Source of the DNA: Pedobacter sp.
GTDB taxonomy: Bacteria > Bacteroidota > Bacteroidia > Sphingobacteriales > Sphingobacteriaceae
Reading direction: 5' to 3'
Assembly (NCBI RefSeq): GCF_031119335.1
Contig: NZ_JAVHXT010000007.1
Coordinates: 1 to 64,000 of the forward strand
Length of the DNA stretch: 64,000 nt
This document shows, piece after piece, positions 34,612 to 56,881 of the stretch. Made by a program: the position numbers and the translations under genes. Within the stretch, counting starts at the first letter, position 1. Each line of letters opens with the position of its first letter. Under the pieces are notes generated by a model. It searched no databases. It saw only the letters and a list, made by a program, of their open reading frames with translations, and was not told the origin of the DNA.

Positions 34612-34647
34612 TTAGAAAGGTTCTCCTTTTTAATATTGATTGATTGA

Positions 34648-34683
34648 AAAGCCTTCCCTTAATTGGGAAGGCTTTATTTTTTT
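34648..34683 (+). terminator. Terminator after the DUF4920 gene
   Basis: Arms AAAGCCTTCCC and GGGAAGGCTTT with a 6-nt loop, followed by a long T run (ATTTTTTT). The rest of the gap to 34829 is AT-rich with no clear motif. Confidence 0.88.
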
Positions 34684-34829
34684 AACGACAAGTTTAAGTG
34701 TAATGGTTAAAGCTGAAATATTAAAGCTGTTTGTAATATTTTTATTTAACCAATATTTAGTTATTAAATTTTTTTAATTACTGTTTTTTATTATCTTCAC
34801 TCCATTAACAAATGAAACCATAATATAAA

Positions 34830-36020
34830 ATGATGAAACTGACCAAGATTACACTATTCGTTGCGGGCATTTGCTTTGTTGGCTCGAATGGTTATGCACA
34901 ACAGCTTACTAAAGCCCAAAATGATGAGTTGCTAAAAGCAAAACAAGGAGCAATAGTTAGGTTAGATGGATTTTTAACAGAAAAAACCGCTCAAATTGCT
35001 TATCAGAAATACCCTACTCCGGGCCCACAATATATCATCTCCGACGATCCTGAATATATCAGGGTACCTGAAGCCATTGCGCTAAAAGAAAGTGTTGTTC
35101 CAGGCGCAGTTCGCTTCTACCTATATAATGTTAATGGCATTAAAGAGCCTCAAAAGATTGATAGAAAAATCATCGCCATGATTAAAAACACGGGCAAAGC
35201 TCCAATGCGCATCAAGATGTTGAAATACGTTACACAAAAGCCTAGCACGAATTACTTCAAGCTAGGAAAAGAAGGCTTAGCATCGTTTTTAGCTGCGCAA
35301 CCAAGCGAAGAGGTACGTGTAGTAAAACCTGGTGAAGCTGTGCCTATAGACGAAAAACTAGAACAATATGTGGTGAAGTATGATGAGCTTGTACACGGAT
35401 TTTACGAGTTTTTGGTAGATCAGCCTGCAGAAATTACAGTACTACAAACAGATCTCAAAACTAGCGGTAAAGATGCTTTGAAAAGAATTACAAATGTATT
35501 GCCTCCGAAAACAAAGAGTGGTGCTGGCAGAGGTCTTTACGGCGTAAGCAATTATCACGTAGCCAATACTTCGGTAATAGATACAAAAAACGGAACTTCT
35601 GCTTTAGTTGTTGCTGACGGCGCAAGTGACCCTTGGATTATCGGTCGTGAGGGCACTACTGGCCAAATCGCTAAATTAGCGGGCAATTACGGAGTAATGT
35701 ACGATATCGAACTGAAGTGGAAAAGTACAGACGGCAAGGGTTTAGCTTTAATCACTTGGAACTCACGCTCGGCAGACAACCAATGGTGCAGCGGAATGGC
35801 AGCAGCAATGAAAGTTAGCGGTGGAAAGTTTAACGAAGGAATTATTCAACTGCCAAAAGACCAATTGGTAACTAAAGCCGCACCAGAAGCGGTGTTGATA
35901 CAAGTTTTTAAACCAACTGGAAATGGCGAAGAACAAACCATCAAGTTAACGTATTCACCTCCGGGAGCTTCATGTTTGCCAACTCCTTTAATTTTCGTCC
36001 CAGTTGACTTAAATCCATAA
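34830..36020 (+). CDS. Secreted protein of unknown family, first gene of the esterase-GH20 operon
   Basis: A 396-residue exported protein; the signal peptide ends at SNGYA|QQL. I do not recognise a family. Features: a helical start (LTKAQNDELLKAKQGAIVRL), a beta-rich middle (AVRFYLYNVNGIKEPQKID, GKAPMRIKMLKYVTQKP), a Gly-rich turn GAGRGLYGVSNYHVANTS and a C-terminal domain with two Cys (NQWCSGMAA, GASCLPTP) that may pair. The two Met codons at 34830 and 34833 are both possible starts. Its stop overlaps the esterase start (TAATG), so it likely works with that enzyme and the GH20, perhaps as a glycan-binding or surface protein. Confidence 0.7.
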   Translation: MMKLTKITLFVAGICFVGSNGYAQQLTKAQNDELLKAKQGAIVRLDGFLTEKTAQIAYQKYPTPGPQYIISDDPEYIRVPEAIALKESVVPGAVRFYLYNVNGIKEPQKIDRKIIAMIKNTGKAPMRIKMLKYVTQKPSTNYFKLGKEGLASFLAAQPSEEVRVVKPGEAVPIDEKLEQYVVKYDELVHGFYEFLVDQPAEITVLQTDLKTSGKDALKRITNVLPPKTKSGAGRGLYGVSNYHVANTSVIDTKNGTSALVVADGASDPWIIGREGTTGQIAKLAGNYGVMYDIELKWKSTDGKGLALITWNSRSADNQWCSGMAAAMKVSGGKFNEGIIQLPKDQLVTKAAPEAVLIQVFKPTGNGEEQTIKLTYSPPGASCLPTPLIFVPVDLNP

Positions 36021-36823
36021 TGATGAGGCTTATCAAACTCATCTTAACGATACTGATCTTGAGCGTGTGCAATTTACATGCTCAAGATCTTTTGACCATA
36101 TCCTCCCCAAAAAACCTGAAGCAAACAGACTCGGTTTTAGTTTATAAACCGCAGCAAAGTTTCTTAGAAAAACTACCTGTTGTTTACCTTTTGCACGGGC
36201 ATAATGCCAACTACAAAAGCTGGAGCAAACTAGCCGATTTGCAAAAGTTGGCCAATCAATATCAGTTTATTGTGGTTTGCCCCGATGGTTTAAAGAAGAG
36301 CTGGTATCTAAACTCGCCAAACAAAGATAGTTTACAATACGAGTCTTTCTTTTTAGAGGAGTTGATGCCCACCATCAATCGAAAATACAACGTAGATCAA
36401 AACAACATATTCGTAACGGGAGCCAGCATGGGCGGTTTTGGAGCGATGTACATGATGATTAAACATCCGCAGCTATTTGCTGGCGCAGGAAGTACATCTG
36501 GGGTATTAAACCTTCATTATTCGGCCTTTAGGAAAACAACCATTGCTTACCTAATTGGCTCTTACGATGAAAAGAACAAACTATACGACGAGTATTCTCC
36601 AGTGAACAATTTACAGTCGCTCCAAGGTTTAAACAAGGCGCTCATTTTCGATACCGGAACAGAAGATTATTTATACATCACCAGTAAACAGTTTAGACAA
36701 AAATGTGATGATCTTAAAATAAAAGCCACCTATGTTGCACAACCAGGAGGTCACACAGGAGGTTATTGGAGCAAATCTATTTTAAAACATTTCGAATTCT
36801 TTTCGGAACATCTAAAGAAATAA
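36020..36823 (+). CDS. Secreted alpha/beta-hydrolase esterase (esterase D type)
   Basis: A 267-residue exported enzyme; the signal peptide ends at CNLHA|QDL. It is a serine hydrolase of the tributyrin/feruloyl/S-formylglutathione esterase group: VVYLLHGHNANYKSWSK near residue 55, the nucleophile elbow GASMGGFGAMYM near 138, FDTGTEDYLY (acid) and PGGHTGGYWSKS (catalytic His). Its place between a secreted protein and a GH20 hexosaminidase suggests removal of acyl groups from a glycan; the substrate is not known. Start overlaps the previous stop (TAATG). Confidence 0.85.
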   Translation: MMRLIKLILTILILSVCNLHAQDLLTISSPKNLKQTDSVLVYKPQQSFLEKLPVVYLLHGHNANYKSWSKLADLQKLANQYQFIVVCPDGLKKSWYLNSPNKDSLQYESFFLEELMPTINRKYNVDQNNIFVTGASMGGFGAMYMMIKHPQLFAGAGSTSGVLNLHYSAFRKTTIAYLIGSYDEKNKLYDEYSPVNNLQSLQGLNKALIFDTGTEDYLYITSKQFRQKCDDLKIKATYVAQPGGHTGGYWSKSILKHFEFFSEHLKK

Positions 36824-36828
36824 ATACC

Positions 36829-38697
36829 ATGAAAATATTTGTAAAAACGCTCACTAAAGCCCTGTTTTTGCTAGTTACATCCATTTCATTCGCAAAAGCT
36901 CAGCAAAAAAATGAGTTGACTTTAATACCACAGCCATCATCCGTAACGTGGGGTACAGCTACTTTTAAATTTGATAAGCAAACTACTTTATTGCTGCCAA
37001 AAGGCGATGAGCATACTGCATTAATCAAAAACTTTAGCGAACAGCTTTCGGGAATTTTAAAACAACAAGTTAAGACTAACACTAAAACAAGCGGTAAAAA
37101 TTTTATTCAGTTTTCTATAAATAAAGATTTAGGGAACGAAGCTTATAAGCTACAAGTTACCAAGCAAAAAATTGAAATAAGTGCTGCTAAGCCTTCTGGT
37201 TGGTTTTATGGTTGGCAAACACTTATGCAAATTGCTAGGTTAAATCTACTAAACGGAAATAGTCATCAAATTCCAGAGGTAACGATTACTGATGAACCGA
37301 AATTTGCTTGGCGTGGTTTAATGATCGATGTAAGCAGACACTTTTTTGACACGGCTGTGCTGAAAAGATACATCGACCAGATGTCGAAATACAAGCTCAA
37401 TGTTTTGCATTTACATTTAACGGATAACCAAGGCTGGCGGATTGAAATAAAGCAATTGCCTAAATTAACCAGTGTTGGCGCATGGCGTGTGCCTAGAACT
37501 GGCTATTGGAGCGGAATGCCAGCTCCCGAACCCGGCGAAGCTACCACTTACGGAGGTTTTTACTCTCAAGACGACATCAAGGAGCTAGTTCGATACGCCA
37601 GTACACGCTTTGTGGATATTGTACCAGAGGTAGATTTACCGGGACATAGTTTGGCTTTCGTAGCATCCTATCCAGAAGTTTCGTGTACTAAAACGCCGCA
37701 GCAGGTTTTGGCTGGCGACCCATGGAATGCGAAAAGAACCAACGTGGTTTGCGTAGGCAACGACTCTACCTACACCAAAATAGATCAAATTATCGGCGAG
37801 CTAGCTGAGATTTTCCCTTCTAAATACATCCACATTGGTGGAGATGAGGTGACCAGGAACTATTGGAGCAACTGCAAAGTTTGTCAAAAACGCATACAAG
37901 ACGAAGGTCTTAAAAATGTAGATGAGCTGCAAAGCTACTTCATTAATAGAGTTGCCAAAATCGTAAAGGCTAAAGGCAAAACACCAATTGGCTGGTACGA
38001 AACATTAGAAAAAGGTTTGGATACCGGAATTGTGCAAATGAGCTGGAAAGATGAAAAAGGCGCTGTAAAATCTTCGAATGAAGGTCACAAAGTAATTTTA
38101 ACACCTGCTTTTTTAACCTATTTAGATTTTTATCAAGGAGATCCTTATTTGGAAAATGCGCCATTTACAGTAAACCGATTGAGCAACAGCTATAAATTTA
38201 ATCCACTGCCAGAAGGGATTAACGTTAAAAACGTATTAGGCGGACAAGGAAGTTTATGGACAGAGCAAGTGCCAAATGAGCGTAAACTGCAATTTATGAC
38301 TTGGCCAAGGGGACTAACCTTGGCAGAAAACCTGTGGTCTGCAGCTCCAAAACCGACCTGGCCGATTTTCCTTAAAAAAATTGAAAGCCATTTGCCTTTA
38401 TTGACTTTAGATAGTACAAATTATAGTGCTTATTTCTACGATCCAATTGTATTTGCTAAAAAGGGTGATAACGGAGATATTGTGTTAACCATTGATACTG
38501 AAGTTCCTAATATCGCTGTACATTATGCTTTTGACGATACCGATCCGGATCAGTTTTACCCAAAATATAAAGGACAAGCAATTGCTATACCCAAAGGAGC
38601 TAAAAATATAAGAATGGTTAGCTATCGTGGCGACACGCAGAAAAGCAGGATAGTAAAGCTTCCAATTGCAGAACTTAAAAGAAGAGCAAAACTTTAG
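36829..38697 (+). CDS. Beta-N-acetylhexosaminidase, GH20
   Basis: A 622-residue exported enzyme; the signal peptide ends near SFAKA|QQK. Domain 1 (LTLIPQPSSVTWG) is the GH20b alpha/beta domain; the TIM barrel carries FAWRGLMIDVSRHFF, HLTDNQGWRIEIK, PEVDLPGHSLAF and the catalytic pair D339-E340 in HIGGDEV, where the substrate N-acetyl group assists. LGGQGSLWTEQV and MTWPRGLTLAENLWS lie near the end. It removes terminal GlcNAc or GalNAc from oligosaccharides, in the periplasm or outside. I start at the ATG at 36829, 5 nt after the esterase stop. Confidence 0.95.
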   Translation: MKIFVKTLTKALFLLVTSISFAKAQQKNELTLIPQPSSVTWGTATFKFDKQTTLLLPKGDEHTALIKNFSEQLSGILKQQVKTNTKTSGKNFIQFSINKDLGNEAYKLQVTKQKIEISAAKPSGWFYGWQTLMQIARLNLLNGNSHQIPEVTITDEPKFAWRGLMIDVSRHFFDTAVLKRYIDQMSKYKLNVLHLHLTDNQGWRIEIKQLPKLTSVGAWRVPRTGYWSGMPAPEPGEATTYGGFYSQDDIKELVRYASTRFVDIVPEVDLPGHSLAFVASYPEVSCTKTPQQVLAGDPWNAKRTNVVCVGNDSTYTKIDQIIGELAEIFPSKYIHIGGDEVTRNYWSNCKVCQKRIQDEGLKNVDELQSYFINRVAKIVKAKGKTPIGWYETLEKGLDTGIVQMSWKDEKGAVKSSNEGHKVILTPAFLTYLDFYQGDPYLENAPFTVNRLSNSYKFNPLPEGINVKNVLGGQGSLWTEQVPNERKLQFMTWPRGLTLAENLWSAAPKPTWPIFLKKIESHLPLLTLDSTNYSAYFYDPIVFAKKGDNGDIVLTIDTEVPNIAVHYAFDDTDPDQFYPKYKGQAIAIPKGAKNIRMVSYRGDTQKSRIVKLPIAELKRRAKL

Positions 38698-38727
38698 CAA
38701 CGTTTTAAGCTGGCGGCCAAAGTAGTA

Positions 38728-38773
38728 ATTAACATAGGAAATTTGTCATCCAGAGCGCAGCGAAGGATCTATT
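38728..38773 (+). repeat. Direct repeat, copy 1 (46 bp)
   Basis: Begins ATTAACATAGGAAATTTGTC and ends GCGAAGGATCTATT. It matches copy 2 at 39145-39190 with two mismatches. The core CATCCAGAGCGCAGCGAAG resembles widespread short Bacteroidota intergenic repeats. Confidence 0.85.
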
Positions 38774-39144
38774 TTAATCTACAATTTAGATCTTTCGCTA
38801 CTTGAATATAAATCGATTATCCACGTCATATCTACCGCAGCAGAGATATCTTTAAATTTAACTTGATCTTCAACTTTTTCTTGATAAAAAGTTGGCAAAA
38901 ATCAAGGCTGCTTAGCCTAGCTTGTTACAGCTCGATAAAACTTTAATTGCGCTGGCTGAAACGTGTGAACGTATGAAAAAACTCGAAAGTGACAAAACAC
39001 TTCTGCACCCAGCTTGTACTGTAAATGCTTTGCGTGACTGCTTACGTTTTATCGGCTTTCACGGCGCTATGCTAAGAGGCCGATATTCGTTCTTAGCAAT
39101 GTATCATCTATATTTAAAGGACACTTGTTTACTGCGACAGTACC
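38774..39144. other. Non-coding segment between the 46-bp direct repeats
   Basis: This 371-bp segment lies between GH20 and the ROK regulator and holds no convincing gene. It contains CTTTTTCTTGATAAAAAGTT with a following ATCAAGG, a motif that from memory recurs in Sphingobacteriaceae intergenic DNA, and two related stretches (CGATAAAACTTTAATTGC and its partial inverse GCTTACGTTTTATCGG). A 75-codon frame with a TTG start (38922-39149) runs into the repeat and looks spurious. The whole gap 38698-39250 appears to be a repeat cluster. Confidence 0.5.
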
Positions 39145-39190
39145 ATTAACTTAGGAAATTTGTCATCCAGAGCGTAGCGAAGGATCTATT
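39145..39190 (+). repeat. Direct repeat, copy 2 (46 bp)
   Basis: Copy 2 of the repeat at 38728-38773 in the same direction, with two base changes (CTTA for CATA; GCGTAG for GCGCAG). Confidence 0.85.
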
Positions 39191-39250
39191 AAATATACCT
39201 CGACCGAGCTAAAATAGCATTAGAGCATGCGCTCCCATGAGCTACAATTT

Positions 39251-40465
39251 CTAAACCAACCCGAGTAATCGGTTCCTAACCAATAAACAGGCACCGATTA
39301 CTCCTGCTTTTTCACCTAATTTCGACATTTTAAGCTGCGTATCATTATTAACCAAGCTTAACGAGTACTTGTTCAAAGCACTTTTAATAGGTAAACGGAT
39401 ATACTCTCCCGTTTCCGCCAAACTACCTCCTAAAATCACCATTTCTGGATTAAAGATATTGATCAACACCGCAATACCTTTACCTAGGCGCTCTCCAACT
39501 TCAGCTACTAATTCTATTGCCAATACATCGTCTTTCATCGCAGCTTCAATAATATCATTTAGTTTAATGTCATCTACAGGCATATTTGAAAGAACCGAAG
39601 TAGATCCCTCTGCAAGCTTCTCCTTAAACTTGCGTACCAAAGCCCAACCCGAAGCCTCTGTTTCTAAGCAGCCTTTTTTACCGCAGCTACAAAGAATTTC
39701 ATTGTTAAAGAATGGAATATGTCCAAACTCTCCGGCAAAGCCAGACTTACCGTAATAGAGCTGACTGTTAATCATGATACCAATACCCATTCCGTAGTCC
39801 ATATTTAAGAAAAGTACATTCTCTTCTTCGTGAACTACGCCTGCTGAAAACTCGCCGAAGGCCATTGCCCTCGAATCGTTTTCTAAAAATATGCGCATTC
39901 CGATATTTCTTTCTATCACGCGGCTAAGCGGCTCCTCATTAAAATGGAAGAAACTGTAACTATAGCCTGTAGAATAATTGATACGTCCTGATAAATTCAA
40001 CCCAGCTCCTAAAATCTTTTCTCTTTTTACAGGCGCTTCTTTTATAAAATTATTAATAAGCTCACAAAGCTGATTTAGGGATTCTTCACTATTATTTAAA
40101 CTGTAAGGGATATTAGCTTTAACGTGTACTAGGTTCTTCTGTAAATCGGTTAGGCCAATATTAATGTGCGACTTCTTTACATCTACCCCAAGAAAGTAAC
40201 CAGACTCCATTACCAGGCCGTAAATATTTGGCTTTCTACCACCTCTAGACTGCAGTTTGCCAAAATCCTTAACCAAACCTTCGTTGATTAATTCGTTCAA
40301 TATGTTATTGATTTTAGGCGTACTTAAGCCTAGCTCTGCGCACAAATCTGCAATAGTACAATTGCCATTTTTGCTAAAGTAAGCAACAATGGCCTTCTTT
40401 AGTGTGAGGTTCTTATAGGCAACACCAGAGGTGTTTTCGTTGCTTAATTCGGCAAAAAATGTCAT
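39251..40465 (-). CDS. ROK-family transcriptional repressor (NagC/XylR type)
   Basis: A 404-residue protein with an N-terminal winged-helix domain (KKAIVAYFSKNGNCTIADL, GLSTPKINNILNELINEGL) and a ROK sugar-binding domain: LENDSRAMAFGEF, LFLNMDYGMGIGIMI, and the zinc motif GHIPFF-CSCGKKGCLE near residue 250-275. Such regulators release DNA when they bind a sugar, often GlcNAc-6-P, glucose or xylose derivatives. It faces the FAD oxidoreductase gene with 211 bp between, so it is the likely local regulator of the utilisation locus. The kinase activity of some ROK proteins is not expected with an HTH domain present. Confidence 0.88.
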   Translation of the reverse strand: MTFFAELSNENTSGVAYKNLTLKKAIVAYFSKNGNCTIADLCAELGLSTPKINNILNELINEGLVKDFGKLQSRGGRKPNIYGLVMESGYFLGVDVKKSHINIGLTDLQKNLVHVKANIPYSLNNSEESLNQLCELINNFIKEAPVKREKILGAGLNLSGRINYSTGYSYSFFHFNEEPLSRVIERNIGMRIFLENDSRAMAFGEFSAGVVHEEENVLFLNMDYGMGIGIMINSQLYYGKSGFAGEFGHIPFFNNEILCSCGKKGCLETEASGWALVRKFKEKLAEGSTSVLSNMPVDDIKLNDIIEAAMKDDVLAIELVAEVGERLGKGIAVLINIFNPEMVILGGSLAETGEYIRLPIKSALNKYSLSLVNNDTQLKMSKLGEKAGVIGACLLVRNRLLGLV

Positions 40466-40676
40466 CTTCTTAAGAAATTTTAAAAATCAAAAATAAAATA
40501 ATATCTGATTTAACCTACTATAACGTAGTTATTTTATCGATTTAGCCAATTCATAAACACAAAAAATTAAAAAACTAATTCAACTTATTAATTTTTTTAA
40601 AAAAGTTTTTATATTTACCGTGCAACTAACTTACAGATAGTAGAGAGATTCGTACCTCTCCAAAAAACAACCGAGT
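40466..40676. promoter_or_regulatory. Divergent control region of the ROK gene and the utilisation operon
   Basis: This 211-bp AT-rich gap must hold promoters for both directions. Weak symmetry is seen (AAAAACT at 40569 with AGTTTTT at 40604; TTAATTTTTTTAAAAAAG), and a -7-like TATATTTAC lies near 40610. These could be ROK operator half-sites of the A/T-rich NagC kind, but the match is not strong. Confidence 0.35.
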
Positions 40677-42536
40677 ATGAATTTGAATTTTACCAAACTT
40701 CTTCTTTTTTCCTTATTAATTACCTGCGCTCAAGCATTTGCACAAGTTGCCCATAAAACAGATGTGCTGATTATTGGCGGCGGTGCAAGCGGCACAACTG
40801 CAGCAATTCAAGCTGCTCGAATGGGTGTTAAAGTGCTTATTGTAGAAGAAACAGAATGGCTGGGCGGCATGCTTACTTCGGCGGGCGTTTCGGCTATAGA
40901 CGGCAACCACAATATGCCTTCTGGCTTGTGGGGCGAGTTTAGACAACATCTTTACGATTATTATGGCGGACCTAAAGCTGTAGAAACAGGCTGGGTAAGC
41001 AACACCCTATTTGAACCATCGTTTGGAAACAAGACGTTGAAAACCATGGCAAACCACCCAAACATCACCATTTGGTATAAAAGTGGTTTAACCAACATTG
41101 CTAAAAATGGTATGCTTTGGGCAGCCGAAGTGAGCAGTAAAGGCAAAAAACAAAACGTAGAAGCCAAGATTTTAATTGATGCTACTGAGCTTGGCGATGT
41201 GATGGCAAAGCTGAAAGTTCCTTACCGTGTGGGCATGGACAGTCGCCACGATACCGGCGAAAGCTTTGCACCAGAGAAAGCAAATAACATTGTACAGGAC
41301 TTAACTTATGTAGTGGTATTAAAGGATTTCGGCGCAAAAGCAAACAAAACCATTAAAAAACCAGAGGGATATGACCCTAAAGAATTTGATTGCTGCTGCG
41401 ATGTTCAAGATCCTGCTTCGCATGACAATACCCCAAAAATTGATTGTAGCCAGATGATTACCTACGGCAAATTGCCAAACGGAAAATACATGATTAACTG
41501 GCCAAAATGTGGTAACGACATCTATATGAACGTTATTGAGATGAGCGATGCTGAGCGCAAAGAAGCTTTGAAAAAAGCAAAACTACATAGTTTACGTTTC
41601 ATCTATCATTTACAAACGAAGCTTGGTTTTAAAAACTTGGGCATAGCTGATGATGAATTTCCGACGGCAGATAAACTACCAATGATTGCTTATCACAGAG
41701 AATCGCGTCGTTTAGATGGAAAAGTGACCTTAACGTTGAATGATGTAAGCGCTCCTTATACTCAGAAAACTTCGCTTTATAGAACTGGTGTTGCCGTGGG
41801 CGATTACACAATAGATCATCACCACCTTAAAAATCCGGAAGCACCACAAATTGATTTCGTAAAAATAAAAGTGCCTTCTTACAATATCCCTCTGGGTGCT
41901 TTGGTACCTAAAGATACCGAAGGGCTAATTGTTGCAGAGAAAAGTATTAGCGTAACCAATATCGTAAATGGTGCTAGCAGATTGCAGCCTGTAGTTTTAG
42001 GAATTGGGCAAGCAGCCGGAGCTTTAGCTGCAACTGCGGTGTTAAGCAATACCGATCCTTCCAAAATCAACATCAGAGCAGTACAAAATGCCTTACTAGA
42101 AAGCAACGCTTATTTGATGCCTTTTATTGATGTTAAACCTAGCGATGCTTCTTTCAAAGTAATCCAAAGAATTGGTGCTACAGGAATTTTAAAAGGAACG
42201 GGCTTGTCTTACAAATGGGCAAATCAAACTTGGTTTTATCCAGACCTGCTAGTTAGCGAGTGGGATTTGGTAAATGGATTGAAATCTCTTTACCCTTCAT
42301 TTGGCGAACTACATCCATCAGGAAATTTAGTTACTGCTAGCTATTTAGCTGGCACAATTAAAGAAATCGGCAAAAAAGAGGTGAGCGAAAACCAAGTGAT
42401 CGATTTTCTGAAGCAAAACAATTTCAAAAATATAACTCCAGAAAGCATGCTAACAAGAAGAATGGTAGCACACGCTTTAGATCATTTCTTAAATCCATTT
42501 AAAATGGAGATAGATTTTACTGGAAAAACAAAATAA
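40677..42536 (+). CDS. Exported FAD-dependent oxidoreductase (PF12831 type)
   Basis: A 619-residue protein with a signal peptide (TCAQAFA|QVA) and directly after it a Rossmann FAD site: TDVLIIGGGASGTTAAIQAAR, then EETEWLGGMLTSAGVSAIDG. A Cys cluster C239-C241 (FDCCCDVQD) and later Cys residues could hold a metal or form disulphides. The second half has NIPLGALVPKDTEGLIVAEK and GIGQAAGALAATA, which complete the FAD fold, and an added C-terminal domain of about 120 residues. The family is frequent in Bacteroidota glycan loci, but its reaction is unknown. It is the first gene of the run that leads to SusC/SusD. Confidence 0.88.
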   Translation: MNLNFTKLLLFSLLITCAQAFAQVAHKTDVLIIGGGASGTTAAIQAARMGVKVLIVEETEWLGGMLTSAGVSAIDGNHNMPSGLWGEFRQHLYDYYGGPKAVETGWVSNTLFEPSFGNKTLKTMANHPNITIWYKSGLTNIAKNGMLWAAEVSSKGKKQNVEAKILIDATELGDVMAKLKVPYRVGMDSRHDTGESFAPEKANNIVQDLTYVVVLKDFGAKANKTIKKPEGYDPKEFDCCCDVQDPASHDNTPKIDCSQMITYGKLPNGKYMINWPKCGNDIYMNVIEMSDAERKEALKKAKLHSLRFIYHLQTKLGFKNLGIADDEFPTADKLPMIAYHRESRRLDGKVTLTLNDVSAPYTQKTSLYRTGVAVGDYTIDHHHLKNPEAPQIDFVKIKVPSYNIPLGALVPKDTEGLIVAEKSISVTNIVNGASRLQPVVLGIGQAAGALAATAVLSNTDPSKINIRAVQNALLESNAYLMPFIDVKPSDASFKVIQRIGATGILKGTGLSYKWANQTWFYPDLLVSEWDLVNGLKSLYPSFGELHPSGNLVTASYLAGTIKEIGKKEVSENQVIDFLKQNNFKNITPESMLTRRMVAHALDHFLNPFKMEIDFTGKTK

Positions 42537-42571
42537 GAATTAAACAACCTAACAATTAATATTTTTTAACC

Positions 42572-45748: not shown

Positions 45749-45759
45749 AAAAGTATATT

Positions 45760-47562: not shown

Positions 47563-47576
47563 TTAATTATTAAATC

Positions 47577-48506: not shown

Positions 48507-48516
48507 GCTGTACTTA

Positions 48517-49902: not shown

Positions 49903-49913
49903 CAAACACACAA

Positions 49914-51209
49914 TTGGAACAAAATAAAAATATCAACCCCATAAAATGGATACCGAGCACATGGTTTGCTATGGGTTTACCCAACTTGGTACTGGGCGGT
50001 ACATTGCTATCGCTTTTGTACAAAAACATGGGTTTTTCAGATACTGAGATTACCGTTTACACGGGTATCATCATTTTACCTTGGAGCTTTAAACCACTTT
50101 GGGGGCCGTTTATGGAGCTGTACAAAACCAAAAAGTTCTACATCTACGGTTCTCAAATATTAGCAGGGCTATTGTTCGCCGTTGCCGCTGGTTTATTGTT
50201 TCTAGATAATTTCTTCGCCGCTTCTGTAGTTGTCTTTTTACTGATTGCCTTTTTAGGTGCTACGCAAGATATCGCTGCCGATGGTCTGTACCTACAATCG
50301 TTAAGTAATAAAGACCAAGCTAAATACGTAGGTTGGCAAGGAACGTTCTATAACTTCGCCAAACTTTTCTCTAACGGAGGAATGGTGTTTTTAGTAGGCG
50401 TACTTATTCCGCTTTACGGCAACACCAAAGCTTGGGCGATTATTTTATTGGTTTACGCCGCAGTAATGTTTTTGTTGGGTTTGTACAACAAAAAAGCTTT
50501 ACCTCAAACACAAACCCAAGTTCAAGTGCAAACTACGGCACAAGTTTGGCAAACGCTAAGTGACGTAATCACCAGCTTTTTCAGAAAGAAACACATTTGG
50601 TTCGGTATTTTATTCATCGTTTTATATCGCTTTGCGGAGGGACAAGCCATTAAAATTATGCCGCTGTTTTTTAAAGCCGCGAAAGATGTTGGTGGTTTGG
50701 GGCTTAGTGAAGCCACTTTAGGTATGCTCACCGGTATTTATGGCACCATTGCTTTCGTACTGGGCTCATTAACTGCCGGATATTTTGTATCAAACAAAGG
50801 CTTGAACCGTAAAACTTTACTGTTGCTTTGTGCTTGTTTTAACCTGCCGTTTATTACTTACGCTTACTTGGCATTTACACAAACATCAAACTTATTTATC
50901 ATTGGAAGTTCGGTTGCTATCGAGCATTTCGGTTACGGTTTCGGTTTTATCGGTATCATATTGTTTATCATGCAGCAAATTGCACCAGGCAAATATCAAA
51001 TGGCACATTATGCTTTTGGTAGCGCTATCACTTATTTCGGCTATACGTTGGCCAGTATGATTAGCGGTCCAATTAGCGATTATTTAGGTTACAAAGACTT
51101 TTTTATATGGGTGCTAATTGCAACTATCCCAGCTTTTATTGCCACTTGGATTGTGCCTTTAAAGAAATCTGAAGAAGAGAAGAACCAAGGGGAATTGATT
51201 AACGAATAA
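49914..51209 (+). CDS. AmpG-like MFS permease
   Basis: A 431-residue protein with about twelve helices. MGLPNLVLGGTLLSLLY, PWSFKPLWGPFMELY and ATQDIAADGLYLQSLS agree with the AmpG/SLC33 branch of MFS, whose best known member imports GlcNAc-anhydromuropeptides. The substrate here is probably an N-acetylhexosamine-containing mono- or disaccharide, as suggested by the neighbours. The start is a TTG at 49914; the next ATG (49971) would remove the first part of helix 1. The SGNH esterase gene starts one base after its stop. Confidence 0.85.
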   Translation: MEQNKNINPIKWIPSTWFAMGLPNLVLGGTLLSLLYKNMGFSDTEITVYTGIIILPWSFKPLWGPFMELYKTKKFYIYGSQILAGLLFAVAAGLLFLDNFFAASVVVFLLIAFLGATQDIAADGLYLQSLSNKDQAKYVGWQGTFYNFAKLFSNGGMVFLVGVLIPLYGNTKAWAIILLVYAAVMFLLGLYNKKALPQTQTQVQVQTTAQVWQTLSDVITSFFRKKHIWFGILFIVLYRFAEGQAIKIMPLFFKAAKDVGGLGLSEATLGMLTGIYGTIAFVLGSLTAGYFVSNKGLNRKTLLLLCACFNLPFITYAYLAFTQTSNLFIIGSSVAIEHFGYGFGFIGIILFIMQQIAPGKYQMAHYAFGSAITYFGYTLASMISGPISDYLGYKDFFIWVLIATIPAFIATWIVPLKKSEEEKNQGELINE

Positions 51210-51210
51210 C

Positions 51211-51888
51211 ATGAAGAAATTAATATACACCTTTTACTTTATCGTTGCTGCTCATTCGTTGAATGCGCAAGAAACCGTTGCTGTAGATAGTGGCTATGTA
51301 AACAGCCACTATACGCAACGATTGGATTTTTTTAGAAAGATGCCCAACCGCAAAGGAGAAATTGCTTTTGTAGGCAACAGCTTAACCGAGGGCGGAAAAT
51401 GGCAGGAACTTATTCGCAAGAAAAACATCATTAACAGAGGCATTAGTGGCGATGTAACTTATGGTATTTTGGCTCGTTTGGATGAAGTTTTAGAGTCGAA
51501 ACCTGCAAAAATATTTTTGTTGAGCGGCGTAAATGATATGAAACGTGGCACTCCAAATGATGTGATTTTAGCCAATTTCAAACGCATGATTGTGATGGTA
51601 AAAACGCAATCGCCGAAAACCAAACTGTATATGCAAAGCTTACTGCCAGTTAATGAAGCGATGTTACCAGCGACTTATGCCCAAGTGAAGAACAGCAAAA
51701 TCAATGATTTGAACCAAAAGCTGGAAGCACTTTGTAAAGAAATGGGTGTGTTTTACATCAACCTACATCCAGCGTTAGCTGATGAAAAAGGGAATTTGAA
51801 AAAGGAATTGAGCCTAGACGGCTTGCACTTGCGCCACGCTTCTTATGTGTATTGGGCTGAGGAATTAAAAAGATTAAAGGTTATTTAA
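51211..51888 (+). CDS. Secreted SGNH/GDSL esterase, copy 1
   Basis: A 225-residue exported hydrolase; the signal peptide ends at HSLNA|QET. Catalytic blocks: I, AFVGNSLTEGG with nucleophile S57; II, RGISGDVTYGI (Gly); III, LLSGVNDMKRG (Asn); V, SLDGLHLRHASY (Asp and His). It belongs to the group of platelet-activating-factor-acetylhydrolase/sialate O-acetylesterase-like lipases and probably deacetylates a sugar. A paralogue is next to it (52038-52724). Confidence 0.88.
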   Translation: MKKLIYTFYFIVAAHSLNAQETVAVDSGYVNSHYTQRLDFFRKMPNRKGEIAFVGNSLTEGGKWQELIRKKNIINRGISGDVTYGILARLDEVLESKPAKIFLLSGVNDMKRGTPNDVILANFKRMIVMVKTQSPKTKLYMQSLLPVNEAMLPATYAQVKNSKINDLNQKLEALCKEMGVFYINLHPALADEKGNLKKELSLDGLHLRHASYVYWAEELKRLKVI

Positions 51889-51917
51889 GGATGAGGAATA
51901 CAAAAAATAAATTAAAT

Positions 51918-52043
51918 CGTCATTGCGAGAGTTTACTCCGATATGTCGGAAAGGAACGACGAAGCAATCTTTCAAATATGATAACCTCTCGCTTTAAGAT
52001 TGCTTTCCCGAAGCGTCGGGATAAACTGTGCCTCGCAATGACG
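51918..52043. mobile_element. MITE-like element with 12-bp terminal inverted repeats
   Basis: The ends CGTCATTGCGAG (51918-51929) and CTCGCAATGACG (52032-52043) are perfect inverted repeats. Inside are a second inverted pair (GAAGCAATCTT at 51961, AAGATTGCTTT at 51996) and two hairpins (TCCGATATGTCGGA, TCCCGAAGCGTCGGGA). It has no gene of its own. It lies between two paralogous esterase genes, and its right end supplies the ATG at 52038. The sequence resembles small dispersed repeats common in Bacteroidota genomes. Confidence 0.7.
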
Positions 52044-52724
52044 GCAGGGTGCACAAGTCTGCTTATCATAGCAACCGTATTCTTTAGCGCCGCCCAAGCA
52101 CAAACCGTAAAAATCGATAGCAATTACGCCAATTGGTACTATCAACAACGCATGGAGTATTTTGCCAAAACGCCCATCCCTAAAAATGCGATTATCTTTT
52201 TAGGAAACAGCATTACCGAGAGAGCGGAGTGGCAAGAATTATTGGCAGATAGCAAATATCCGGTAGTAAACAGAGGCATTGGTGGCGATAACTCTTTCGG
52301 CATTTTAGCTAGAATGGACGAAATTGTAGCCGCAAAACCTAAAGCCATTTACTTAATGGATGGCATTAACGACCAGTTCCGCAAGCTGCCTCATGATGTA
52401 AGTGTGTACAACTACAAACGCATCATCAGAAAGATTAAACAGCAGTCGCCAAACACGAAAATTTACGTGGAAAGCTGTTTGCCTATTAACGAAAGCATGA
52501 CCAAAGAGGCTTACACCAAAGACCGCAATGTTTTGGTGCCAGCACTCAATAAAAAAATTAAGGCATTGGCCGAAGAAGAAGGCGTGACTTACATCGATAT
52601 CTGTCCGCTATTTCAGGATGATAAAGGTGTATTAAAGCAAGAATTTACGATGGATGGCGTGCATTTAAAAGCCGCAGCCTATATCGATTGGGTAAAATTT
52701 TTAAAGGATAATAAGTATTTGTAA
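52038..52724 (+). CDS. Secreted SGNH/GDSL esterase, copy 2, start inside a repeat element
   Basis: A 228-residue exported hydrolase. Blocks I-V are present: IIFLGNSITERAEW (nucleophile S58), RGIGGDNSFGI, LMDGINDQFR and TMDGVHLKAAAY. The ATG at 52038 gives a normal signal peptide (LLIIATVFFSAAQA|QTV) and places the catalytic Ser at 58, against 57 in copy 1, which supports this start. The frame is open upstream to 51891, but those 49 codons are the translated repeat element, with a very basic unusual product. Role as for copy 1. Confidence 0.85.
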   Translation: MTAGCTSLLIIATVFFSAAQAQTVKIDSNYANWYYQQRMEYFAKTPIPKNAIIFLGNSITERAEWQELLADSKYPVVNRGIGGDNSFGILARMDEIVAAKPKAIYLMDGINDQFRKLPHDVSVYNYKRIIRKIKQQSPNTKIYVESCLPINESMTKEAYTKDRNVLVPALNKKIKALAEEEGVTYIDICPLFQDDKGVLKQEFTMDGVHLKAAAYIDWVKFLKDNKYL

Positions 52725-52768
52725 GGTTGGTTAAAAACCTTTCATCAACATAATTAAGAAGAAAAAGA

Positions 52769-53701
52769 ATGAGAATAACGGGAACTTTTATTGATGAGAT
52801 TTCTCACGATATCCCACACCAAAACTGGGGAAGAGAAGAATGGGCAAAGGATTTTGCGCACATGAAAGCAATGGGGATTGATACAGTAATTCTCATTAGG
52901 AGCGGTTATCGCAGGTTTATTACCTATCCATCGGTTTACCTAAAAAATAAATTTGGCTGCTACGAACCGCCTATCGATTTGGTAGAACTGTATTTAGAAC
53001 TGGCGGATGAACACGACATGAAATTCTATTTCGGTTTGTACGACAGTGGCCATTACTGGGATACAGGAAATTTACAGCACGAAATTGATGCTAACCGCTA
53101 CGTTATCGATGAAGTTTGGGCCAAGTACGGACACCACAAAAGTTTCGGTGGTTGGTACCTGAGCATGGAAATCAGTCGCCGCACCAAAGGAGCTACCGAA
53201 GCTTTTAACACTTTGGGCTTGCAGTGCAAAGGCGTAAGCAATGGTTTGCCAACTTTCATCTCCCCATGGATTGATGGTAAAAAAGCGGTAATGGCTGCGG
53301 AAGCGACCTTGACCAAAGAAAACGCAGTATCGCTGAAAGAACACGAAGATGAGTGGTCGGAGATTTTTGCTGGCTTAAAAGGTTCTATCGATGCAGTTGC
53401 TTTTCAGGATGGCCACGTAGATTACCACGAGCTGCAAGATTTCTTTGAAGTGAACAAGAAAATGGCTGATAAATTCGGTTTGCAATGCTGGACCAACGCC
53501 GAAAGTTTCGACCGCGATATGCCCATCAAATTCCTTCCTATCAAATTCGAAAAACTAAGATTAAAACTAGAAGCGGCAAGAAAAGCAGGTTACGATAAAG
53601 CCATCACTTTCGAGTTTTCACACTTTATGAGCCCACAATCGGCTTACTTACAAGCGCAACACCTTTATAATAGATACCAAGAATACGCAAAGACTTTATA
53701 A
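52769..53701 (+). CDS. DUF4434 protein, cytoplasmic TIM-barrel-like
   Basis: A 310-residue protein without a signal peptide or membrane segment. The opening RITGTFIDEISHDIPHQNWG, HMKAMGIDTVILIRSGYRR, FYFGLYDSGHYW, GGWYLSMEISRR, PTFISPWIDG, AVAFQDGHVD and QCWTNAESFD alternate as in a TIM barrel with acidic residues at strand ends (E in YLSMEIS, D in AFQDGH, E in NAESFD), the pattern of a retaining glycosidase. It fits DUF4434 from memory, whose substrate is not established. It is followed 1 bp on by the GlcNAc 2-epimerase, so a cytosolic step on an amino sugar is plausible. Confidence 0.78.
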   Translation: MRITGTFIDEISHDIPHQNWGREEWAKDFAHMKAMGIDTVILIRSGYRRFITYPSVYLKNKFGCYEPPIDLVELYLELADEHDMKFYFGLYDSGHYWDTGNLQHEIDANRYVIDEVWAKYGHHKSFGGWYLSMEISRRTKGATEAFNTLGLQCKGVSNGLPTFISPWIDGKKAVMAAEATLTKENAVSLKEHEDEWSEIFAGLKGSIDAVAFQDGHVDYHELQDFFEVNKKMADKFGLQCWTNAESFDRDMPIKFLPIKFEKLRLKLEAARKAGYDKAITFEFSHFMSPQSAYLQAQHLYNRYQEYAKTL

Positions 53702-53702
53702 G

Positions 53703-54875
53703 ATGAACAAGTACATAGATATATACAAGAACGAATTGCTAAACGAGATTGTTCCCTTTTGGAGCAAAAACTCTTTAGATAGAGATGCAGGGGGATATTT
53801 TACCTGTTTAGATGCCAAAGGAAATGTCTACGATACCGATAAATTTGCTTGGTTGCAAGGCCGTCAAATCTGGACATATTCGATGCTTTTTGATAAAGTA
53901 GAAGCCAAACAAGAATGGAAAGATATTGCAGAATTGGGTGCTTCTTTCATGAGAAAACATGGTAGAGATGCCAATGGCGATTGGTATTTTTCTTTTACCA
54001 AAGAGGGGAAACCTTTAGTGCAACCTTACAACATTTTCTCTGATTGCTTTGCTACAATGGGCTTTGGCGCACTTTGTAAAATCAACAACAGCAATGAAGA
54101 TGCCGACATCGCATTAAAGACTTTCAACAGAATTTTAGAGAGAAGAAACAATCCAAAAGGTAAATACAGTAAAGGCTTTCTCGGTACCAGAGATTTAAAG
54201 AACTTCTCGTTACCGATGATTTTGTGCAATCTATCTTTAGAGTTAGAGCACTTGTTAGATAAATCTACCGTAGATGGTTTAATTGACGAGGTTTTACACG
54301 AAGTGATGTCTGTGTTTTATCAACCACAATCGGGATTGATTTTGGAGAACGTTTATCAGGATGGTAGCTTCTCAAATTCTTATGAAGGAAGAGTAGTAAA
54401 CCCTGGTCACATTATCGAAGCCATGTGGTTTATCATGGATTTGGCCGTAAGGAAAAACGACAAAGCGTTAGTAGACAAAGCTCTTGAAATTGCATTTACA
54501 GCATTAGAATTTGGTTGGGATGATAAACATGATGGTATTTTGTACTTCAAAGATATCAAAGGGCATCCGGTACAACAATTAGAGTGGGACCAAAAGCTTT
54601 GGTGGGTACACGTAGAGGCTTTGGTAACTATGGCAAAAGGCTACGCCATTACCCAAAATGAAAAGTGTGCAGTGTGGTTCGAAAAACTTCACGATTACAC
54701 TTGGAAGAACTTTAGAGATGCAGAAAATGGTGGCGAGTGGTACGGTTATTTAAATCGCAGAGGCGAAGTTTCTATTCCTGCAAAGGGTGGTAAATGGAAG
54801 GGTTGTTTCCACATTCCAAGAGCATTATATCAGGTTTATCATACTTTAGAAACAGTGGCTGTACCTGCGATATGA
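53703..54875 (+). CDS. N-acylglucosamine 2-epimerase (AGE family)
   Basis: A 390-residue (alpha/alpha)6-barrel enzyme that interconverts GlcNAc and ManNAc. It closely follows the renin-binding-protein/GlcNAc 2-epimerase pattern: KFAWLQGRQIWTYSMLF, NIFSDCFATMGFGAL, VNPGHIIEAMWFIMDLA, QQLEWDQKLWWVHVEAL and KGGKWKGCFHIPRALYQ. The His in GHIIEAMW and in HVEAL are the expected catalytic bases. It is cytoplasmic and would feed imported ManNAc into GlcNAc use. The GH97 gene overlaps its stop (ATGA). Confidence 0.92.
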   Translation: MNKYIDIYKNELLNEIVPFWSKNSLDRDAGGYFTCLDAKGNVYDTDKFAWLQGRQIWTYSMLFDKVEAKQEWKDIAELGASFMRKHGRDANGDWYFSFTKEGKPLVQPYNIFSDCFATMGFGALCKINNSNEDADIALKTFNRILERRNNPKGKYSKGFLGTRDLKNFSLPMILCNLSLELEHLLDKSTVDGLIDEVLHEVMSVFYQPQSGLILENVYQDGSFSNSYEGRVVNPGHIIEAMWFIMDLAVRKNDKALVDKALEIAFTALEFGWDDKHDGILYFKDIKGHPVQQLEWDQKLWWVHVEALVTMAKGYAITQNEKCAVWFEKLHDYTWKNFRDAENGGEWYGYLNRRGEVSIPAKGGKWKGCFHIPRALYQVYHTLETVAVPAI

Positions 54876-56881
54876 GACAGAAGATTTTCCTAATAATTTT
54901 TCTTTTAGCCAATAGTGCATGGGCACAAAAAGGCAGCTTCACACTAGCTTCTCCAGACGGAAGGCTTAAAGCATTAATTAATACAGATAAACGTATTGAT
55001 ATTTGCGTGCTTCAAGAAAAAGATACCGTTCTAAGGCCTTCAACAATTAAAATGGATATTGTTGGAAAACCTTCTTTTGGAACTAATCCGAAAGTTGTAA
55101 AGAGCATTTTTTCGAAAAATAAACGACAAAAAATAGAAAGCCCTTTTTATAAGAAAAGTACTATTTCGGACACTTATAATGAAGTAAGCCTTTCATTTAA
55201 AGGAAACTATAGCCTAACCGTTAGAGCTTATAATGAGGGGGTAGCTTATCATTTTTCGAGCTCTTTAAAAGAACCTTTTTTAGTTAAAAATGAAACTGCC
55301 GATTTTATTTTCCCCGACGATGCTAATGCCTATATCCCCTATGTAAAAGTGAGAGGTGCTGAACTAACGATGGAACGTCAGTTTAACAACTCTTTCGAAA
55401 ACACTTATACCTATGGGAAACTAACGGCTATGGATACGAATAGGCTTGCCTTTTTGCCTTTACTTATAGAAACAAAGAGCAAGAGAAAAGTACTGATTAC
55501 AGAAGCTGACCTAGAAGCATATCCAGGGATGTACCTCAGGAACATTGATAGAAAAAATAAGCTTTCGGCTGTATTTGCGCCCTATCCTAAAACTTTAGAA
55601 CACGGCGGCTATAACAAATTACAGTTATTAGTTAAAGAAAGAGAGCCTTACATTGCTAAAGTTTCGTCTCCTAGAAATTTTCCTTGGAGAATTATTTCCG
55701 TAGTAAAAAATGATGCAGAACTTCTAGATAATGATATGGTCTATAAATTGGCTTCTCCATCTAAAATTGATGATGTTTCATGGATAAAACCAGGAAAAGC
55801 AGCTTGGGATTGGTGGAATGCATGGAACTTATACGGCGTAGATTTTAGAGCCGGAATAAATACTGAAACCTATAAATACTATATTGATTTTGCATCAAAA
55901 AAAGGATTGGAATATGTAGTGATTGATGAAGGTTGGGCTGTAAACTTAAAGTTCGACCTCAAGCAAGTTGTATCAGCTATCAACCTACCAGAGCTAATCA
56001 ATTATGCTAAGCAAAAAAATGTGGGTATCATTTTATGGGCAGGATATTATGCTTTCGAAAAGGATATGGAAGAAGTTTGCAGGCATTACTCGGCTTTGGG
56101 AGTAAAGGGATTTAAAGTAGATTTTATGGATAGAGACGACCAGTTGATGGTGGATTTCTATTATAAAGCGGCAAAAACAGCAGCAAAGTATAAACTAATC
56201 CTTAACCTTCATGGTGCTTACAAACCTACCGGACTACAGAGAACGTATCCAAATGTGCTTAATTTTGAAGGCATACATGGTATGGAGCAAATGAAATGGG
56301 TAGATATCAAAACTGACCAAGTTACTTACGATGTTACTTTTCCATTTATCAGAATGGTAGCGGGGCCTGTAGATTATACACAAGGCGCAATGAGAAATGC
56401 ATCTAAGAACAACTACAGAGCAGTTAGTCAAGAAGCCATGAGCCAAGGTACCAGATGTAGACAATTAGCTTCCTATATCGTGTTTGATGCGCCACTAGCT
56501 ATGCTATGTGATAATCCAGTAAATTATGAGAAGGAAGAAGAAAGCATCTCATTTATTTCTAAAATACCAACCTTTTGGGACCAAACCTTTCCTTTAGAAA
56601 GTAAAATTGGAGAATACATTGTTATCGCCAGAAAAAAAGGTGATGACTGGTTTATAGGCGGCTTAAACAATTGGAACAAAAGAAGTATTAATTTGGACCT
56701 TTCGTTTCTAAATAAAGACGCTAAAGAAGTGGAAATTTTTGTTGATGGAATTAATGCTGACAGGGTTGCGAGAGACTACAAAAGAAAAAAAATCCAACTT
56801 TCAGAAAATAGAACTTTAAAAGTAGATATGGCACCAGGGGGTGGATTTGCCATAAAAATATCTACACTTAAGGTGAATTAA
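54872..56881 (+). CDS. GH97 glycoside hydrolase (retaining-type, alpha-galactosidase-like)
   Basis: A 669-residue exported enzyme; the signal peptide ends at ANSAWA|QKG. Domains: an N-terminal beta-sandwich (SFTLASPDGRLKALINTDK, about 22-290), a TIM barrel (KAAWDWWNAWNLYGVDF, YVVIDEGWA, GVKGFKVDFMDRDDQ) and a C-terminal beta domain. The Asp D417 in KVDFMDRDD fits the nucleophile of the retaining GH97 group (BtGH97b-type alpha-galactosidase), unlike the inverting SusB glucosidases that use Glu. The start overlaps the epimerase stop. Activity on alpha-galactosides is inferred from that residue. Confidence 0.9.
   Translation: MRQKIFLIIFLLANSAWAQKGSFTLASPDGRLKALINTDKRIDICVLQEKDTVLRPSTIKMDIVGKPSFGTNPKVVKSIFSKNKRQKIESPFYKKSTISDTYNEVSLSFKGNYSLTVRAYNEGVAYHFSSSLKEPFLVKNETADFIFPDDANAYIPYVKVRGAELTMERQFNNSFENTYTYGKLTAMDTNRLAFLPLLIETKSKRKVLITEADLEAYPGMYLRNIDRKNKLSAVFAPYPKTLEHGGYNKLQLLVKEREPYIAKVSSPRNFPWRIISVVKNDAELLDNDMVYKLASPSKIDDVSWIKPGKAAWDWWNAWNLYGVDFRAGINTETYKYYIDFASKKGLEYVVIDEGWAVNLKFDLKQVVSAINLPELINYAKQKNVGIILWAGYYAFEKDMEEVCRHYSALGVKGFKVDFMDRDDQLMVDFYYKAAKTAAKYKLILNLHGAYKPTGLQRTYPNVLNFEGIHGMEQMKWVDIKTDQVTYDVTFPFIRMVAGPVDYTQGAMRNASKNNYRAVSQEAMSQGTRCRQLASYIVFDAPLAMLCDNPVNYEKEEESISFISKIPTFWDQTFPLESKIGEYIVIARKKGDDWFIGGLNNWNKRSINLDLSFLNKDAKEVEIFVDGINADRVARDYKRKKIQLSENRTLKVDMAPGGGFAIKISTLKVN

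Follow-up and report, generated by a model that had tools for sequence, protein, structure and literature searches.

The window, i.e., the 64,000-nucleotide stretch of Pedobacter sp. DNA analyzed here, lies on contig C26 of a 4.36-Mb genome in 26 contigs. Positions 34830-56881 comprise a SusC/SusD polysaccharide utilization locus (PUL), in which the SusC and SusD genes are adjacent and the glycan enzymes are co-directional. The locus is thus of a known kind, and it holds a widely conserved amino-sugar core formed by a DUF4434 protein and an N-acylglucosamine 2-epimerase (AGE). Pfam families are matched by 14 of its 15 genes, all of which lie on the forward strand except that for the ROK regulator. 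Eleven genes (40677-56881) follow one another head to tail, are separated by no more than 44 bases and therefore look like one predicted operon; AGE and GH97 even overlap by 4 bases. A second gene group spans 34830-38697, and the ROK gene is divergent from the main operon. Every family named by a first-pass annotation of this DNA (GH20, ROK, FAD oxidoreductase, SusC/SusD, DUF5017, DUF5009, AmpG-like permease, two SGNH esterases, DUF4434, AGE and GH97) was retrieved at its place, although that gene list had omitted the genes at 34830-36020 and 36020-36823.

Within the core, DUF4434 (52769-53701) is a predicted cytoplasmic GH-A-like glycosidase of 310 amino acids that scores 286 bits against PF14488 (cut-off 30, E 4e-85). 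AGE (53703-54875) reaches 636 bits against NF052547 (cut-off 600) and has sequence matches to 6f04 and 2gz6 in the Protein Data Bank (PDB). The main operon starts with an exported FAD-dependent oxidoreductase (40677-42536; PF12831, E 9e-101), followed by a SusC-type TonB-dependent transporter (42572-45748; TIGR04056, 915 bits), a SusD-type lipoprotein (45760-47562; Pfam match) and a DUF5017 lipoprotein (47577-48506; Pfam, E 1e-60). Next come an HGSNAT/NagX-like DUF5009 membrane protein of the transmembrane acyltransferase superfamily (48517-49902) and an AmpG-like permease of the major facilitator superfamily (MFS; 49914-51209; PF07690). The former obtains 369 bits against PF16401 (cut-off 25, E 2e-110) and 43.6 bits against the NagX glucosamine N-acetyltransferase model NF046061, which is below its cut-off of 480. 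Likewise, the permease remains below the cut-off of the AmpG model TIGR00901 (117 versus 350 bits). Two SGNH esterases (51211-51888 and 51891-52724; both PF13472) precede DUF4434, the first with a signal peptide, as judged by eye like the other signal peptides of the locus. The true start of the second is probably the Met of MTAGCTSLL, since 16-24% of its open reading frame (ORF), on the 51891-52050 side, has no DNA match in the compared relatives; we take the N-terminal peptide encoded there to resemble a translated repeat element. A GH97 retaining alpha-galactosidase closes the operon (54872-56881; NF053844, 1052 bits, cut-off 800), with PDB sequence matches to 3a24 and 5e1q. The second gene group consists of orfA (34830-36020; 396 amino acids, signal peptide, no known family), an alpha/beta-hydrolase esterase with a signal peptide (36020-36823; PF00756) and a GH20 beta-hexosaminidase (36832-38697; PF00728, E 4e-109) with a HIGGDE motif in its translation. 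The GH20 ORF is listed from 36766, and the ATG at 36832 yields a signal peptide. The ROK-family regulator (39251-40465, reverse strand; PF00480) has an N-terminal helix-turn-helix, and many relatives have a ROK gene as well.

DUF4434 and AGE form a conserved core that recurs in many Bacteroidota and is apparently uncharacterized. Among 151 genomes of the window's family, presumably the Sphingobacteriaceae, DUF4434 exceeds the Pfam cut-off in 27 and AGE the NF052547 cut-off in 44. All 27 genomes with DUF4434 also have AGE, versus 17 of the 124 without DUF4434 (hypergeometric p 1.3e-18, kinship ignored). DUF4434, to which the first-pass annotation had assigned no role, becomes part of the core through this pairing. 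The family genomes hold 31 DUF4434 genes over the cut-off, of which 28 entered a distance test (two extra copies in genome G117 and one in G057 were left out). AGE lies within 3 kb of 26 of these 28, and the two others are divergent (161 and 88 bits). None of the three genes outside the test lies within 3 kb of AGE. A scan of a collection of named genomes with a DUF4434 alignment yielded 596 stretches, 576 of which encode relatives, and the best 80 were retained. They span Pedobacter, Sphingobacterium, Chitinophaga, Rufibacter, Flavobacterium, Parabacteroides, Tannerella, Prevotella and others, and DUF4434 identity across these 80 amounts to 71-96%, from Pedobacter to Tannerella and Prevotella. 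Among the compared family loci, DUF4434 is usually the most conserved protein.

These 80 loci, 27 further ones and the window were clustered as 108 neighborhoods, each cluster being named after one representative. The most prevalent clusters are DUF4434 (n = 100), AGE (n = 66), SGNH (n = 62), DUF5009 (n = 50), FAD oxidoreductase (n = 48), ROK (n = 41), GHL10 with DUF4985 (n = 37), AmpG-like (n = 31) and orfA (n = 26). They are followed by the SSF symporter and the sugar porter (n = 24 each), a second GHL10 group (n = 20), NAGPA (n = 18), GH92 (n = 17), the SusC type of the window and MetallophosC (n = 16 each), DUF5017 (n = 15), GH20 (n = 14) and NagB-PIG-L (n = 10). Frequent partners of the core are hence SGNH esterases, DUF5009, the exported FAD oxidoreductase, ROK and a transporter. 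The neighborhoods are not independent, because they range in length from 3.7 kb up to 20.9 kb, L056 overlaps with L057 and several were paired within one species; DUF4434 is identical within the pairs L045/L097, L043/L105, L049/L128 and L051/L130. DUF4434 is unclustered in L057-L060, which hold divergent copies, and in L106, L157, L167 and L175, where the DUF4434 call seems to have been displaced by a longer frame on the opposite strand. The DUF4434 core of L097 (Nubsella zeaxanthinifaciens) is identical to that of G130, a genome of the same genus as the source genome, which is thus near Pedobacter and Nubsella. In L056/L057 (contig C1 of G117), three DUF4434 genes (270, 149 and 125 bits) lie within 20 kb and share the region with MetallophosC and SusC/D genes.

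Other parts of the locus are less constant. Compared with 34830-54875, two loci from the same genus (L040/L064 and L046/L065) share non-receptor proteins that are 82-99% identical. Identities amount to 99 and 96% for DUF4434, 95 and 93% for both AGE and the AmpG-like permease, and 87 and 85% for the FAD oxidoreductase. GH20 reaches 86 and 85% over one piece and 64 and 60% over the piece at the locus border. In L040 and L046, SusC is 58-59%, SusD 51-53% and DUF5017 43-44% identical, the latter without any DNA match. In the Nubsella locus L045 (G130), no SusC, SusD or DUF5017 gene separates the FAD oxidoreductase from DUF5009. GH97 has no DNA match in the four relatives compared and does not follow AGE in L040, L045, L046 or L096. 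Because they are diverged or absent in loci of the same genus, GH97 and the SusC/SusD/DUF5017 cassette seem to have been added to the core, GH97 as a lineage-specific addition and the cassette (42572-48506) as a replaced or fast-evolving part. Conservation of the locus as a whole was therefore dropped. The search for conserved gene order that the first-pass annotation had proposed thus confirms the DUF4434-AGE core but neither the receptor genes nor GH97. Its reading of an amino-sugar locus without NanA and with a cytosolic GlcNAc 2-epimerase stands, except that the unit is the core with exchangeable receptor and glycosidases.

DUF4434 is 72% identical to BT_0435 of Bacteroides thetaiotaomicron over the solved structure of the latter (PDB 4h41). 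A structure model of the window protein, built from 35 sequences (pLDDT 87), is an eight-stranded barrel that matches 4h41 with a Z score of 44.8, followed by the GHL10 enzyme Cwp19 (21.2). Beta-mannanases (19-20), the GH164 beta-mannosidase of Bacteroides salyersiae (19.9) and a GH42 enzyme, beta-galactosidases and beta-amylases (18-19) come next, with Z differences below 1 counted as ties. In clan GH-A, the acid/base and nucleophile glutamates sit after strands 4 and 7. According to the secondary structure of the model, E134 is located just after strand 4 (126-130) and E245 just after strand 7 (239-243). Neither residue varies across 35 aligned rows, which reach down to 20% identity; the other invariant acids are D70 and E115. 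With this GH-A architecture of a barrel and glutamates after strands 4 and 7, E134 and E245 are the likely candidate catalytic pair, and we infer from the model that DUF4434 is a putative retaining GH-A-type glycosidase.

AGE enzymes interconvert N-acetylglucosamine (GlcNAc) and N-acetylmannosamine (ManNAc). Excerpts of two studies (PMC5583593, PMC3969230) describe the conversion of ManNAc to GlcNAc by the GlcNAc 2-epimerase NanE-II in the sialic-acid catabolism of Bacteroidota. In the family genomes, DUF4434 implies AGE and AGE occurs without DUF4434, as would be expected of a DUF4434 that produces the AGE substrate. Moreover, ManNAc is the favored product since the release of GlcNAc would need no AGE, while the release of ManNAc would. 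Our preferred reading, to which we assign a probability of roughly 40%, is that the PUL is built around a conserved Bacteroidota amino-sugar module in which DUF4434 releases ManNAc and AGE turns it into GlcNAc. The glycosidase activity of DUF4434, ManNAc as its product, the substrate and the regulation are putative here, as are the roles of DUF5009, the permease and the FAD oxidoreductase, and any specific substrate of the locus is a guess. SusC, SusD and DUF5017 would bind and import glycan fragments, which the esterases and GH20 (and here also GH97) would trim outside the cytoplasm. DUF5009 would probably acetylate free amino groups, enabling glycosidases that depend on N-acetyl groups. The AmpG-like permease would then import a small amino-sugar oligosaccharide, from which DUF4434, as a retaining GH-A-type enzyme, would free ManNAc in the cytoplasm. 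AGE would convert it to GlcNAc for the GlcNAc 6-phosphate route, and ROK may act as the regulator of the locus. The source genome has a NagA over the cut-off (302 versus 226 bits) and three genes of the glucosamine-6-phosphate isomerase family; the NagB-PIG-L cluster lies near the core in its 10 neighborhoods. For DUF5009, human lysosomal HGSNAT with NAGLU and bacterial NagX provide the comparison system, from which the window differs by the low NagX score given above and by the lack of GH89 in the locus. An excerpt of one study groups DUF5009 with HGSNAT and states that no DUF5009 protein has a confirmed function (PMC12423673).

The presence of a signal peptide on DUF4434 goes together with the type of transporter. 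The window protein begins with MRITGTF and carries no signal, whereas a twin-arginine-like signal, RRxF(L/I/M/F), precedes DUF4434 in 25 of 98 rows. A recognized transporter is found nearby in 23 of these 25 rows and is a sugar porter in all 23. For DUF4434 without a signal, the corresponding number is 56 of 73 rows, none of them with a sugar porter: 30 are AmpG-like, 19 SSF, 4 SSF with CstA and 3 another MFS type. L142 and the second ORF of L160 were left out of the 98 rows, as the pattern used for trimming the core is missing, and both have an RR signal and a sugar porter in the locus. On the DUF4434 tree, L172, with neither a signal nor a recognized transporter, falls with the signal group at a fork that is not resolved. 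The pairing fits if DUF4434 and the transporter handle the same molecule, with DUF4434 acting before import by a monosaccharide porter or after import by an oligosaccharide permease.

Several points weigh against ManNAc release by DUF4434. The pairing of signal and transporter is no statistical proof, because it corresponds to a single change on the DUF4434 tree (independent-pairs test: one pair, p 1); the idea that it evolved repeatedly and independently was abandoned for this reason. AGE clusters near DUF4434 in only the 66 of 108 neighborhoods of unequal length mentioned above. In addition, AGE acts in both directions, some of its relatives act on other sugars, and its identity is taken from the NF052547 model and not from a comparison with NanE-II sequences. 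PDB entry 4h41 is named a putative alpha-L-fucosidase, and we know of no DUF4434 protein with a tested activity. The mannosidase-like fold does not establish specificity, since Z scores of 18-19 are also obtained for the GH42 enzyme, beta-galactosidases and beta-amylases. Finally, no common operator emerged from a search of the two upstream regions (34612-34829 and 40466-40676), in which all matches were A/T-rich and chance-like.

The best surviving alternative, though a doubtful one, is a general locus for N-acetylhexosamine glycans (chitin, N-glycan or mucin-like), in which DUF4434 would cut another small oligosaccharide and AGE would supply ManNAc from GlcNAc or only balance the pools. AGE is reversible, and genes for GH20, SGNH, GH92 and GHL10 recur in the loci, but such a diversity of accessory glycosidases matches no single host glycan and the one-way dependence of DUF4434 on AGE is left unexplained. 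The B. thetaiotaomicron region near BT_0435 also speaks for a general locus, as it encodes the GH89 alpha-N-acetylglucosaminidase BT0438, one of the GH89 enzymes studied in PMC8225759, of which an excerpt was available. According to an excerpt of an iron-limitation transcriptome (PMC10434189), the BT0438-BT0454 region comprises SusC/D, DUF5009, two family-10-like hydrolases, DUF4855, a calcineurin-like phosphoesterase and a sugar porter. Iron limitation reduced the expression of twelve of its genes, with p values of up to 0.154 for part of BT0451-54; BT_0435 itself does not appear in this excerpt. Compared with the window, this region has GH89 instead of GH20/GH97 and a sugar porter instead of the AmpG-like permease, and BT_0435 has about 57 residues ahead of the core, as in the DUF4434 forms with a signal.

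Salvage of peptidoglycan or muropeptides is unlikely. GHL10 enzymes would then make anhydro-muropeptides, the AmpG-like permease would import them and DUF4434 would replace NagZ. AmpG-NagZ muropeptide recycling is indeed similar in its order of a permease and then a cytosolic glycosidase, the AmpG-like permease and the two GHL10 clusters are frequent (31, 37 and 20 of 108 neighborhoods), and the top-ranked characterized fold after BT_0435 belongs to Cwp19, the GHL10 domain of which is a lytic transglycosylase according to an excerpt of PMC6016235. Yet the window has neither GHL10 nor a GH3 (NagZ) gene in the locus, its permease stays below the AmpG cut-off and other loci use SSF or sugar porters. 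Moreover, no clearly muramic-acid-specific gene was met among the families of the partly scanned neighbors, and AGE, which is present here, has no place in the recycling pathway.

A sialic-acid (Nan) locus with its lyase and sialidase encoded elsewhere is close to refuted and was dropped, because the NanA model TIGR00683 exceeds its cut-off in none of the 151 family genomes and the SusD of the window scores far below the cut-off of the NanU model (63 versus 425 bits). The nan operons of Tannerella forsythia and Bacteroides fragilis, as given in the excerpt of PMC3969230, are alike in their SusC/SusD-like NanOU, hexosaminidase, sialate-O-acetylesterase and epimerase NanE. The epimerase has its counterpart in the window through the NF052547 match, a model match rather than a NanE-II comparison. 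In contrast to these operons, the window locus has no NanL/NanA by model and no sialidase domain in domain scans of its proteins, and it carries DUF4434, the FAD oxidoreductase and DUF5009 in addition. The absence of NanA and sialidase claimed by the first-pass annotation thus holds for the locus, and NanA is not found just outside it either, as the sole TIGR00683 match in the source genome amounts to 117 bits against a cut-off of 382. The genome does contain three BNR_2 (sialidase-superfamily) genes, solely on contig C15, where they adjoin a different SusD-like gene; the strongest of the encoded proteins is weakly similar to solved sialidases (33 bits). The separate locus concerned (L181, C15:86001-106000) comprises SusD-like_2, the three BNR_2 genes, DUF5689 and an AraC-type regulator.

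Returning to ManNAc release by DUF4434, the polymer consumed by the module probably contains mannosamine and possibly stems from other bacteria. NAGPA genes encode homologues of an enzyme that splits GlcNAc-1-phosphate diesters. Ten of the 28 tested DUF4434 genes have NAGPA within 20 kb, while 0.59 is expected (Poisson p 8e-10) based on the number of NAGPA genes and the genome sizes, with no other SusC/D loci as the yardstick; part of this enrichment may be general clustering of glycan genes. For AGE genes in genomes without DUF4434, NAGPA occurs within 20 kb in 1 out of 17 cases (G103), as read off lists, and no NAGPA is listed in G117 and G057. MetallophosC is found within about 13 kb of 5 of the 31 DUF4434 genes, as counted by eye from lists and without a statistic. 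In L061, a protein with GDPD and metallophosphatase domains adjoins DUF4434, and the GDPD linkage comes from 2 of 62 scanned neighbor proteins, the domain scan having taken 62 of the 117 unclassified ones. The window locus contains no NAGPA, and two NAGPA genes are present elsewhere in the source genome. One of the two, a 516-amino-acid NAGPA on contig C10 (L184, 5509-8738), stands beside homologues of clusters c55 and c21, both of which neighbor the DUF4434 core in relatives.

Linkage units of wall teichoic acid, secondary wall polymers and phosphorylated capsules are examples of phosphodiester-linked glycans, and the NAGPA genes near the core are a hint of a bacterial polymer that contains phosphodiesters. 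Because the window locus has no NAGPA, a bacterial polymer is kept as the bold case only. In this bold case, which we consider unlikely, DUF4434 would found a new GH family as the first N-acetylmannosaminidase, and the module would consume the surface polymers of other bacteria. These could be the linkage units of wall teichoic acid (ManNAc-beta1,4-GlcNAc-alpha1-P), secondary wall polymers that contain ManNAc or capsules of O-acetylated ManNAc. The phosphate links would be opened by phosphodiester glycosidases of the NAGPA type together with phosphoesterases and the GDPD enzyme, the esterases would strip O-acetyl groups and DUF5009 would re-acetylate free amines. The swapped SusC/SusD/DUF5017 cassette would track the variable outer part of the polymer.

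For DUF4434, a crystal structure exists and no known function was found, and its activity as a ManNAc-releasing glycosidase is a testable prediction from the pairing with the epimerase. If true, DUF4434 would be a reagent for ManNAc glycans and would explain a catabolic module common to Bacteroidota from soil and from the gut; with a bacterial polymer as the substrate, Bacteroidota would be consumers of their neighbors' wall or capsule polymers. In open-licence PubMed Central, no literature naming DUF4434 was found, the word mannosaminidase was absent from the literature searched, and locus-tag, family, epimerase and GHL10/NAGPA terms retrieved no functional study of the DUF4434-AGE core in titles and abstract starts. 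The first-pass annotation had not recognized the gene combination as characterized, which agrees with this lack of a functional paper, but the structure of BT_0435 is solved and the BT0438-BT0454 genes feature in the iron transcriptome.

A few observations concern the borders and gaps of the locus. The orfA protein has no Pfam, NCBIfam or PDB sequence match. Its structure model is confident (pLDDT 86), but a PDB fold search gave no credible match (TM score at most 0.25), and a fold assignment was therefore dropped. The orfA cluster is nevertheless present in 25 of 107 related loci in addition to the window, and 24 full-length homologues from these loci align with 51-86% identity. Upstream of the locus, a 605-amino-acid protein is encoded at 32249-34066 that matches no Pfam or NCBIfam family. 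The 553-base gap between GH20 and ROK (38698-39250) contains no ORF of at least 100 amino acids and has no DNA match in the compared relatives. It does contain two copies of the element GTCATCCAGAGCG(C/T)AGCGAAGGATCT, at 38745 and 39162, while 0 are expected, and this element looks like a repetitive palindromic element.

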